Positions 11,991 to 43,364 of a DNA stretch of 64,000 bases are shown here, in pieces. The position numbers were made by a program, and so were the translations under genes. The notes below the pieces were generated by a model, which saw only the letters and a list, made by a program, of their open reading frames with translations, was not told the origin of the DNA and did not search any database. The DNA is taken from the NCBI RefSeq assembly GCF_036017915.1, contig NZ_CP107929.1:4158001-4222000 (forward strand), written 5' to 3'. The DNA is from Micromonospora sp. NBC_00421 (lineage in GTDB: Bacteria; Actinomycetota; Actinomycetes; Mycobacteriales; Micromonosporaceae). How positions within the stretch are numbered: position 1 is the stretch's first letter; every line of letters begins with the position of its first letter.

Positions 11991-12065
11991 GGCGATCATG
12001 GAGTGGTGGTGCCCGGAGTGCACCGGTTCAGGGCCTTTGCGGCCCAGCACAACTCCATGATCGCC
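11991..12065. repeat. Palindromic element, family 2, copy C
   Basis: An inverted repeat whose outer arms are GGCGATCATGGAGT (11991-12004) and its exact complement (12052-12065), extended by about 4 further near-matching bases. The interior holds a smaller hairpin GGGCC/GGCCC (12031-12045). The left arm is identical over 20 bp to that of copy D at 41905. It is located downstream of the Rieske-fusion gene. Confidence 0.85.
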
Positions 12066-40219: not shown

Positions 40220-41626
40220 TCAGTAGGCGCGGGCCAGGATGGCGACGAGGTCCGGCTCGTCCTCGCTGTCCGGGACGGAACCGTCGGCGCGCAGCAGGCA
40301 GCGGACGGTGACGCCCTGGCCGTTGGCCTCGGCCTCGCCCGGGACACCGACGGCCGACCACGGCACCATGGCCCAGCCGGTGGCGGCCGCCTCGATCGCC
40401 TCGGCGAGGGTCGACACCTCGACGGTCCGGGAACGTCGGTGGGCGAGCGCCTGGTCGTGCAGCGCCCGCTGGTCGGCCTCCAGGGCGGCCAGGACCGCGC
40501 CGACCACGTCCGCGACCGGGGTGGGCGCCTTCGAGCCGTCCGTACGCCGGACCACCACCGCGTTGCCGGCGGCCAGGTCACGGGGGCCGACCTCGACGCG
40601 TACCGGATAGCCGCGCAGCTCGGCGTCGACGGCCCGGCGGCCGAACGCGGTGTCGGTGCGGTCGTCGAGCGCCACCCGGACGCCGGCGTCGCGCAGCGCG
40701 TCGCGCAGCGTGGCCGCCGCCTCGCCCACGCCGTCGCCCGCCTTGACGATCATGACGTACGCCTGGATCGGGGCCAGCCTCGGCGGCACCCGCAGACCGT
40801 TGTCGTCGCCGTGCGCCATGATCAGGCCGCCGAGCATCCGGGTCGAGGTGCCCCAGGAGGTCGTCCAGGCGTGCTCCCGGCCACCCTCGGCCGAGGAGTA
40901 GCTGATGTCGAACGCCTTGGCGAAGTTCTGCCCCAGCTCGTGACTGGTGCCCAGCTGGAGCGCCTTGCCGTCACCCATCATGCCTTCGCAGGTGTAGGTG
41001 GCGGTCGCCCCGGCGAAGCGCTCCCGGGCGGTCTTCAGCCCGACCACCACCGGGATGCCCAGAACGTTGACCATCAGATCCTCGTACGCCTCGTGCAGGA
41101 TCCTGCGGGCGTAGGCCCGCGCGTCCTCCCGGGTGGCGTGGGCGGTGTGCCCCTCCTGCCAGAGGAACTCGCTGGTCCGCAGGAAGATCCGCGGGCGCAG
41201 CTCCCAACGGACCACGTTCGCCCACTGGTTGAGCAGCAGCGGCAGGTCGCGGTACGAGTCGATCCACTTGGCCATGAACTCGCCGATCACCGTCTCGCTG
41301 GTGGGGCGCACCACCACCGGCTCGGCGAGCTGCTTGCCACCACCGTGGGTGACCACCGCCAGCTCCGGCGAGAAGCCCTCGACGTGCTCGGCCTCGCGCT
41401 TGAGGTAGCTCTCCGGGATGAACAGCGGAAAGTACGCGTTCTCCGCGCCGGCCGCCTTGATCCGGGCGTCCATCTCGGCCTGCATCCGCTCCCAGATGGC
41501 ATAGCCGGCCGGACGGATGACCATGGTCCCCCGGACCGGGCCGTTGTCGGCCAGCTTCGCCTTGGCGATCAGGTCCTGGTACCAGCGGGGAAAGTCCTCC
41601 GCACGGGGAGTGAGCACACGAGCCAT
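40220..41626 (-). CDS. proS: Prolyl-tRNA synthetase (eukaryote-like, short type)
   Basis: 468 residues, lacking the INS editing domain of the long bacterial form. Class II motifs: PTSETVIGEFMAKW, FLRTSEFLWQEGHTAHAT and the motif 3 region GGLIMAHGDDNGLRVPP. Residues 350-468 include the anticodon-binding domain. The 640-bp upstream region is unusually structured (see 41749-42266). Confidence 0.97.
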   Translation of the reverse strand: MARVLTPRAEDFPRWYQDLIAKAKLADNGPVRGTMVIRPAGYAIWERMQAEMDARIKAAGAENAYFPLFIPESYLKREAEHVEGFSPELAVVTHGGGKQLAEPVVVRPTSETVIGEFMAKWIDSYRDLPLLLNQWANVVRWELRPRIFLRTSEFLWQEGHTAHATREDARAYARRILHEAYEDLMVNVLGIPVVVGLKTARERFAGATATYTCEGMMGDGKALQLGTSHELGQNFAKAFDISYSSAEGGREHAWTTSWGTSTRMLGGLIMAHGDDNGLRVPPRLAPIQAYVMIVKAGDGVGEAAATLRDALRDAGVRVALDDRTDTAFGRRAVDAELRGYPVRVEVGPRDLAAGNAVVVRRTDGSKAPTPVADVVGAVLAALEADQRALHDQALAHRRSRTVEVSTLAEAIEAAATGWAMVPWSAVGVPGEAEANGQGVTVRCLLRADGSVPDSEDEPDLVAILARAY

Positions 41627-41748: not shown

Positions 41749-42055
41749 CAAGATCGTGCTACTTCCGGGATGTAGTGGCATCCCCGAGCCGCGAGGCCAC
41801 TACATCCCGGAAACATCCCGGACAACGCCGTTGCGTTAACGCCGTGGGCGGCTGGTCAACCCGGGACAGGAAGTGCCAGATCGGGGAGCGGGGTGGGCCC
41901 GCTTGGCGATCATGGAGTGGTGGTGCCGACTTTGGGGGTTTTACAGGCGTTCTGTCACCCACCACAACTCCATGATCGGCGAGGCAGCGCTGGTTGACGA
42001 ACAGCCGTTCCACCTAACGCAACGGTGTTGACATCCCGGATCGAGCACGATCTTG
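41749..42055. repeat. Nested inverted-repeat region
   Basis: The outer pair CAAGATCGTGCT (41749-41760) matches 42044-42055 inverted, 12 of 12. Another pair, CCGTTGCGTTA (41828-41838), matches 42015-42025 inverted. Between them a perfect 17-bp hairpin (TTCCGGGATGTAGTGGC, 41763-41779; complement 41796-41812) and direct ACATCCCGGA decamers (41802, 41813, 42031) occur. It resembles a composite non-autonomous element; no transposase is visible. Confidence 0.8.
41905..41981. repeat. Palindromic element, family 2, copy D
   Basis: The left arm GGCGATCATGGAGTGGTGG (from 41905) matches copy C at 11991 over 20 bp, and the right arm (about 41960-41980) is its near-complement with one G/T difference, around a loop of about 35 nt that differs from copy C. 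It lies inside the larger inverted-repeat region. Confidence 0.85.
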
Positions 42056-42147
42056 CCCGCGGGCAGCAGGCGGCGGGCAGGGGACGGCGGGCGGCGGGGG
42101 TGACGGGCGGGAACCGCAGGTGGACGGTGGGACCGCGGCGTGGGGAG

Positions 42148-42266
42148 CGGCAGGTGGGAGTGGGGCGGGGTGGGAGTGGGGTGGGGGTGGGGTGGGAGTG
42201 GGGTGGGAGTGGGGTGGGAGTGGGGTGGGGGTGGGGGCGGGGGTGGGAGTGGGGTGGGGGTGGGGG
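42148..42266. repeat. G-rich 11-bp repeat array
   Basis: Imperfect tandem copies of AGTGGGGTGGG and related GGGTGGG units over about 119 bp, ending at the amidohydrolase stop. The plus strand has dozens of G3-G5 runs separated by 1-2 bases, so it should form G-quadruplexes; the amidohydrolase transcript end would be C-rich. Confidence 0.9.
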
Positions 42267-43346
42267 TCAGCGGACCACCCGGCCGCGCAGGATGATGCGG
42301 GAGGGGTTGCGCACCACGCTCAGGTCGCGGCGCGGGTCCTCCGGGTAGACGACCAGGTCGGCCAGCCCACCCTCGACAAGGCCGGGGAAGCCGAGCCATT
42401 CCCGGGCCCGCCAGGAGGCGGCGGCGAGGACGTCCACCGCCGACATGCCGGCCTGCTCGTGCAGCAGCAGCATCTCCTCGGCGGCCAGTCCGTGGTCGAT
42501 GCCGCCGCCCGCATCGGTGCCCACGTAGATCGGCACCCCGGCCTCGTGGGCGGCGCGGACCACGGCAGGGAAGCCGTCCCGCAGGGCGAGCATGTGGTCG
42601 GCGTACCCGGGGAACCGGGGGCGGGCCCGGTCGGCGATGCCGCCGAAGGTCCGAATGTTGATCATCGTGGGGACCAGCGCGGTGCCCTGCCGGGCCATCA
42701 GGTCGATCAGGTCGAGGCTCAGTCCGGTGCCGTGCTCCACCGAGTCCACCCCGGCCCGCACCATGATCTCCACCGCCGACTCGCTGAAGGTGTGCACCGC
42801 GGCGCGTACCCCGGCGGCGTGTGCGGCGGCCACCGCGGCGGTCATCGTGTCGGCGTCCCAGGCCGGCGCGAGGTCGCCGACGCCGCGGTCGATCCAGTCG
42901 CCGACCAGTTTGACCCAGCCGTTCCCGGCGGCGGCCTGCGCGGCCACGGTCGCGGCCACCTCCGCCGCGTCGACCTCCAGACCGATGTCGCGCAGGTAGC
43001 GCTTCGGCGGGGCCACGTGCCGGCCGGCGCGGGCCAGTCGCGGCAGCTCCGGTTCGTCGTCGAGTTCGGGGTACGGGTACGGCGAGCCCGCGTCCCGCAG
43101 CGCGAGCACCCCGGCGTCCCGGTCGGTACGGGCCGATTTCCGGGCCTGGTCGAGGGAGGTGATCGGGGTGCCGCCCCGGGCGATGCCGAGGTGGCAGTGG
43201 GCGTCGACCAGACCGGGCAGCACGAATCCACGGTCGACGACCGTCTCCGCCCCGGGCACCGGGTCGAAGGTGACCCGGTCGGCGTCGAGCCAGATGTCGC
43301 GTACCTCGTCTTCGGGCAGGAGCACACCGCGCACATGCAGAGCCAT
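42267..43346 (-). CDS. Amidohydrolase superfamily protein
   Basis: 359 residues. TIM-barrel metal ligands are visible: VDAHCHLG (HxH), the lysine in WVKLVGD, His in VHTFSES, His in VEHGTG and the catalytic Asp in GTDAGGG. The domain order and the LRDAGSP segment suit imidazolonepropionase/cytosine-deaminase-like enzymes; the substrate is unknown. ATG at 43346 is used because AGGA lies 8 nt upstream. A G-rich array abuts the stop. Confidence 0.92.
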   Translation of the reverse strand: MALHVRGVLLPEDEVRDIWLDADRVTFDPVPGAETVVDRGFVLPGLVDAHCHLGIARGGTPITSLDQARKSARTDRDAGVLALRDAGSPYPYPELDDEPELPRLARAGRHVAPPKRYLRDIGLEVDAAEVAATVAAQAAAGNGWVKLVGDWIDRGVGDLAPAWDADTMTAAVAAAHAAGVRAAVHTFSESAVEIMVRAGVDSVEHGTGLSLDLIDLMARQGTALVPTMINIRTFGGIADRARPRFPGYADHMLALRDGFPAVVRAAHEAGVPIYVGTDAGGGIDHGLAAEEMLLLHEQAGMSAVDVLAAASWRAREWLGFPGLVEGGLADLVVYPEDPRRDLSVVRNPSRIILRGRVVR

Positions 43347-43364
43347 GCGCACAGTCCTACCCGA

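Follow-up and report, generated by a model that had tools for sequence, protein, structure and literature searches.

A 208-bp IS4-type MITE in one arm of a dispersed palindrome upstream of proS in Micromonospora

A dense nest of inverted repeats lies upstream of the prolyl-tRNA synthetase gene proS in Micromonospora sp. NBC_00421, and the locus raises the question of what built it. An earlier, sequence-only reading considered a composite, non-autonomous mobile element that had trapped a palindrome (copy D), a structured RNA leader of proS, or both. The repeats that it listed are all present in the 64,000-nucleotide stretch of DNA analysed here, which we refer to as the window. Positions 41749-41760 and 42044-42055 form an outer inverted pair (12/12 matched), and positions 41828-41838 and 42015-42025 form an inner pair (11/11) that is part of a 16-bp pair (41823-41838 and 42015-42030, 94%). 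A perfect 17-bp hairpin is formed by 41763-41779 and 41796-41812, the decamer ACATCCCGGA occurs three times (starts at 41802, 41813 and 42031), and palindrome D (41907-41978) is matched at 12/12 positions in its outer arms and at 88% over 24-nt arms.

The statement that structure is denser here than in the other gaps was also confirmed. Perfect inverted repeats of at least 11 bp, with a span of at most about 320 bp, numbered 5 in the 307-bp bin; no other bin of the window had more than 2, and the best bin across 20 first-order Markov shuffles of the window contained 3. Taken alone, positions 41749-42055 contained 4 perfect inverted repeats, against a shuffle mean of 0.01 and a maximum of 1 (500 shuffles). 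Folding in both directions gave a strong structure on each strand, with z-scores of -7.9 (plus) and -8.0 (minus), and 0 of 100 shuffles was as low on either strand. The absence of protein coding likewise held, as the open reading frames that overlap the region are mechanical, only short ones fall in the MITE described below, and no convincing gene is present. A search of Rfam over the window returned no family at the gathering score.

The region is two nested repeats, a 78-bp palindrome, designated P1, and a 208-bp MITE inserted in its right arm (Table 1). The outer inverted pair and the 17-bp hairpin are parts of P1 and not the ends of an element, the inner 11/11 pair belongs to the ends of the 208-bp block, and the target duplication accounts for two of the three decamers. 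The mobile part of the composite nest envisaged earlier was thus recovered as the MITE, whereas the supposed outer ends are a split target palindrome. At this locus P1 has arms CAAGATCGTGCT.../...AGCACGATCTTG and a core GTAGTGGC...GCCACTAC, and it sits between the stop of an amidohydrolase-like gene and proS. The block, which contains a decayed half of hairpin E together with hairpin D, starts 196 bp upstream of the proS start codon. These results very probably reflect the entry of a non-autonomous IS4-type MITE into the right arm of a pre-existing P1, with duplication of 10 bp, at a nearly fixed position in P1 and with a helper acting in trans.

Table 1 Features of the nested repeat region and its neighbouring genes (window coordinates).
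Feature	Position	Strand	Basis
P1, split by the MITE: left arm, loop and the greater part of the right arm (CAAGATCGTGCT...GGCCACTACATCCCGGA)	41749..41812	.	Intact 78-nt counterpart in G011 (L204); covariance model R1
First ACATCCCGGA decamer, extra copy	41802..41811	+	G011 empty site: 1 decamer on the arm vs 3 here
Left 10-bp target-site duplication ACATCCCGGA	41813..41822	+	
IS4-type MITE, 208 bp	41823..42030	+	27 full or nearly full copies in this genome; G011 empty site
Left terminal inverted repeat CAACGCCGTTGCGTTA (family consensus CAACACCGTTGCGTTA)	41823..41838	+	
Left subterminal box GTCAACC	41855..41861	+	At 33-39 counted from the end; 21/24 IS4-type ends compared carry GTCAA there
Remnant right half of hairpin E	41862..41888	+	E complete in related MITEs from other species
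Hairpin D (palindrome copy D), internal to the MITE	41907..41978	.	
Right subterminal box, GTCAACC on the minus strand	41992..41998	-	
Right terminal inverted repeat TAACGCAACGGTGTTG	42015..42030	+	
Right 10-bp target-site duplication ACATCCCGGA	42031..42040	+	
Outer end of P1 right arm (TCGAGCACGATCTTG)	42041..42055	.	Intact G011 counterpart
proS (prolyl-tRNA synthetase)	40220..41626	-	Gene name from the earlier reading
Amidohydrolase-like upstream neighbour, same strand as proS	42267..43352	-	Name by inspection

Positions 41749-42060 were used as a query against the genome, a single contig of 7,231,838 bp. The 208-bp block was found in 27 full or nearly full copies and one fragment (L028) among the 40 scored of 108 first-look candidates, and the copies diverge from their consensus by 0.5-4.3%. 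Fuzzy matching located the ends in 26 of the 27; the other (L027), which carries a 44-column insertion, required a wider search. The 10-bp flanking duplication is exact in 16 copies (14 as printed, L005 with the boundary moved by one base, and L027), matches at 9/10 in five, 8/10 in two and 7/10 in two, and is poor in L008 and L026. In L008 the MITE lies between two P1 copies and the flank pair does not match, a probable result of recombination or duplication. Every match in the genome to the 16-bp end with at most one mismatch belongs to a MITE copy, and no other correctly oriented pair of ends within 5 kb was found in this genome at up to 3 mismatches (list read by eye). The block is therefore assigned as a MITE from its short length, its 16-bp terminal inverted repeats, the lack of a transposase gene, its multiple copies, its target-site duplications and its empty sites. 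Additional full copies flanked by a target duplication had been named in advance as support for a mobile element, and the non-autonomous element then proposed is borne out by these copies, their duplications and the empty site.

The proS locus of a relative, G011 (L204), has the same flank and an intact P1; it lacks the MITE, and the arm in question carries just one decamer. The flanks of 12 of the remaining 26 copies were also placed in G011 and the gaps examined; the MITE was present in 0 of the 12, so that with proS all 13 loci lack it. The tested copies were therefore gained in the lineage of NBC_00421 or lost in that of G011. At 9 of the 12 loci the NBC_00421 copy lies in P1, and a fuzzy pattern found P1 in G011 at three of these (L005, L012 and L015); at L003 the pattern hit a palindrome of another kind in G011. 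Including proS, G011 keeps P1 alone at 4 of the 10 loci whose NBC_00421 copy is in P1, which indicates that the P1 sites themselves turn over too. The G011 orthologues of P1 at L005, L012 and L015 (L251, L253 and L254) differ in both stem and loop, with flank pieces 86-97% identical. This divergence between similar flanks hints at fast evolution with correction between the arms, or at replacement. Compared to G011, the proS copy carries an extra 11 bp (AACATCCCGGA), which may have arisen by tandem duplication or be a footprint left by an earlier visit or excision; the extra decamer at 41802 is unexplained by a single insertion.

P1 is the preferred target of the MITE. Inside P1 lie 24 of the 27 copies (22 placed by a covariance model, and the degenerate L010 and L026 by eye), and only L016, L017 and L021 lie outside it. 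The position is nearly fixed, the usual insertion point being nnnnnnnTGT^AGTGGC or, in the opposite arm, the mirror image of this. Both arms are used and the duplicated decamers vary among sites, and these are therefore separate insertions. The covariance model, R1, was built from one natural P1 site and from 16 of the 24 occupied sites, rejoined without the MITE; in some of these the duplication is imperfect. It gave 54 genome hits at E <= 0.01 among the scored matches (150 of 2801 candidates), a few of them partial; 23 of these hits adjoin a MITE (22 different ones in all), and the other 31 do not. At 78 bp each, the P1 sites found amount to about 4.2 kb, or 0.06% of the chromosome, and random insertion would therefore be expected to place about 0.02 of the 27 copies there.

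P1 could in principle be a passive safe site, with broad insertion and survival under selection of intergenic insertions only. Gene context was assigned by a rough gene call at 43 loci, comprising the 27 MITE loci and 16 further best-scoring P1 loci, one of which (L245) is the window's own copy again. The genes are convergent at 21 loci, co-directional at 15 and divergent at 2, and 5 loci were without assignment. The frequent position of P1 between convergent genes favours the safe site. Against it, all but three of the copies lie in P1, for which the sites found add up to about 4 kb in 7.23 Mb, and the point of insertion within P1 is nearly fixed. We consider this explanation very improbable.

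Pairing in P1 was assessed in an alignment of 17 sequences, in which both sides changed in 13 of 31 pairs, a number equalled by 12 of 500 shuffles. The covariation score exceeded those of all 500 shuffles and all six slid versions, in an alignment drawn from palindromes, which favours pairing. G-U accounts for 11 of about 454 paired cells, a share that fits a DNA palindrome better than an RNA. This bears on the proposal that proS has a structured RNA leader or riboswitch-like element here. The strong predicted fold on both strands and the location upstream of proS are in keeping with a leader. However, the P1 core occurs in only 2 of 24 proS upstream regions of the genus and the MITE in 1 of 24, and none of the 22 genus genomes other than NBC_00421 and G011 has either one there (upstream lengths of 1500 nt in 20, 243 nt in L216 and 32 nt in L217). 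In addition, the MITE is present at 26 other places, P1 is commoner between convergent genes than elsewhere, Rfam gave no match, and the G-U share is that which a DNA palindrome would give. Covariation in proS-adjacent copies had been suggested as a sign of an RNA role, but the covariation observed belongs to dispersed palindromes at many different genes. A proS leader is thus very improbable. In three of the proS upstream gaps (L218, L220 and L221) an unrelated palindrome with TTGATCAA at its tips was observed, which, with D and E, suggests a superfamily of GATC-tipped palindromes.

That P1 and the MITE are one composite element multiplying as a unit would agree with the 24 copies within P1, but it is already disfavoured by the empty sites and is highly unlikely, given that 31 of the 54 P1 hits have no adjacent MITE, that P1 is found in genus genomes with no MITE match (among 8 scored candidates per genome), that the MITE occupies either arm with differing decamers, that G011 holds P1 alone at 4 of 10 orthologous loci, and that three copies are outside P1.

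P1 itself is not confined to this genome: with E <= 1e-4 as the threshold, 17 genus genomes out of 25 had matches. It was also considered as a RAYT/REP element and rejected, since the Y1 (RAYT-type) transposase profile PF01797 had 0 matches in the NBC_00421 genome, with 5 of 14 control genomes positive. Two hybrid palindromes, L247 (G000:C1:6397650-6398120, in the NBC_00421 genome) and L244, combine a P1-like core (GTAGTGGCATCC, GTGGTGGCATCC) with D-like outer ends (CATGATC).

Other genus genomes contain related MITEs with the same ends; by their identical flanks, G102 corresponds to M. arborensis NRRL 8041, G023 to M. chokoriensis NRRL B-24750 and G028 to Micromonospora sp. H61. Ten related MITEs with a readable end and flank were read by eye (L062, L080, L090, L091, L093, L095, L097, L098, L100 and L101), and 7 of the 10 lie in P1, the others (L080, L097 and L100) being outside it. 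Hairpins E and D are both present in L101 and L097, L090 has E without D, L095 has E with D mostly missing, and the NBC_00421 and G011 copies have D with half of E. The simplest reading of these arrangements would be a MITE ancestor with two hairpins that then underwent different deletions, according to which D was not trapped by this copy. The suggested capture of copy D is also contradicted by its presence in the consensus of the 27 copies and in related MITEs, and the variants that lack D look like deletions. D also occurs solo, for example at window positions 11993-12063, outside any MITE and just downstream of a CCCACG tandem repeat, and the D part was the sole MITE hit in G001, G039, G048, G066, G078 and G093.

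A scan for CCTAACGCAACGGYGTTG, run over a single genome of each species, yielded 20 stretches. One of these (L168, from a Dactylosporangium MAG) is a 1518-bp IS whose two 16-bp ends do not differ from the consensus of the MITE; it is flanked by the 10-bp duplication GCTATGCATG. Its transposase is interrupted by an in-frame stop within the YREK motif. The first protein piece matched Nterm_IS4 (2e-20) and DDE_Tnp_1 (3e-9) and scored 113 bits against the NCBIfam model transpos_IS4_1, just below the cut-off of 115; the second piece had no matches. A MITE by definition lacks the transposase that bears this motif, but among elements with like ends the exact YREK pattern was present in L168, with the stop inside the motif, and in 7 of the 8 loci checked in the genus. 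Relatives of the L168 transposase were found in 29 of 151 genomes searched and were absent from NBC_00421, G011 and G023.

Among 30 loci with related transposases, IS4-like ends and an exact 10-bp duplication were found in 13 and a 9/10 duplication in one (L176), and in the rest the ends were poor or none. Nine loci of about 1.5 kb (L171, L172, L174, L175, L176, L181, L182, L185 and L199) have the left end CAACGCCGTTCAGTTAGG and duplications with CTAG. In the IS4 elements of nearest type in the genus, 3 of 16 end positions differ from the MITE, and these elements duplicate CTAG decamers and not P1. The sequence GTCAA is at positions 33-37 in the MITE ends and in 21 of 24 IS ends compared (12 elements). 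Over 23 subterminal positions the mean match between MITE and IS ends was 11.3, compared to 6.9 in shuffles (99.9th percentile 13); L189 stayed at the shuffle level, and L199 has the same ends as L171. The MITE thus has the ends and the approximately 10-bp duplication of the IS4 family, with one end position (4) that differs from the published row.

No helper transposase was found in the genome of NBC_00421, where none of the 16 candidates scored, out of 19 at first look, was a match at E <= 1e-10; its MITE copies therefore look orphaned. A strict pattern of end plus subterminal box was found in 3 of 354 genomes of the family, all of this genus, and revealed no helper; no helper of the P1-targeting family was found in Micromonospora. 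Two other candidates were rejected. The duplication length suggested the ISAs1 family, but the best of 30 fetched ISAs1 loci had 5 mismatches in 19 against the MITE ends; ISAs1 transposase matches were present in 31 of 61 genus genomes and none in NBC_00421. A 1.35-kb IS-like stretch common to L081 and L085 was actually a common recA/recX neighbourhood (names by inspection).

We suggest that an IS4-family transposase with CAACACCGTTGCGTTA ends, presumably since lost from the genome, would act on the MITE in trans by cut-and-paste. It would recognise the 16-bp ends and the GTCAA subterminal boxes and would itself select the nearly fixed position in either arm of P1, which in nnnnnnnTGT^AGTGGC typically follows TGT. 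Either the junction sequence (TGT^AGTGGC) or the shape of the palindrome arm may be the cue for the enzyme, as both coincide in P1. A more speculative version, which we regard as possible but unlikely, is that target choice depends on shape, the transposase recognising an extruded hairpin or a stem position beside the GTAG core rather than the duplicated sequence. P1 would then provide intergenic landing pads, and hairpin-rich MITEs would nest in hairpins. If so, a palindrome family with fast turnover and co-evolving arms would steer transposition across the genus.

Elements of the IS4 subgroup of the IS4 family have ends of the form -AATR--------WTW---- and duplications of 10-13 bp (De Palmenaer et al.; PMC2266710). 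The MITE resembles them in its ends (CAAC(A/G)CC...TTA, with TTA at positions 14-16), its 10-bp duplications and its putative partner transposases with Nterm_IS4 and YREK, and differs in lacking a transposase gene and in having C, not T, at end position 4. Insertion of ISs at a fixed point of extragenic (REP) palindromes is established, including by ISRm22, which its authors assigned to IS4 (PMC1525189). Both ISRm22 and the MITE use a fixed point in a repeated extragenic palindrome, yet ISRm22 is an autonomous IS of Sinorhizobium that inserts at the palindrome axis with 6-bp duplications, whereas here a MITE of Micromonospora inserts in the stem with 10-bp duplications. Bacterial MITEs with an IS parent are likewise established, as with MITEAba12 (PMC6382973), which is also tied to an IS by its ends and duplication length. 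In contrast to the present MITE, MITEAba12 is 111-114 bp long with 9-bp duplications, has a proposed IS parent in the same genome, and has target sites that are reported to show no identifiable sequence trend. The GTAG REPs associated with RAYTs (PMC3733652) resemble P1, which is likewise an extragenic, dispersed palindrome and carries GTAG in both arms, but P1 is long and symmetrical with a variable stem, and no Y1 transposase was found in the NBC_00421 genome. Among open-licence papers, where absence is weak evidence, we found no published IS4-type MITE homing to palindrome arms in several species of actinobacteria.

These findings represent familiar transposon biology with unusually tidy evidence, and they add a MITE to the known palindrome-homing elements. 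A puzzling nest of inverted repeats is explained as an insertion with a visible empty site, and signals resembling structured RNA at such places in Micromonospora may be transposon nests. P1, with about 24 of its sites in a single genome occupied and 31 free, offers a natural system for studying how an IS4-type transposase picks a palindrome arm. A further repeat was observed in the gap between the MITE and the upstream gene (window positions 42130-42266), which contains a G-rich tandem repeat (GGGGTGGGAGT and variants) that is a possible G-quadruplex former.
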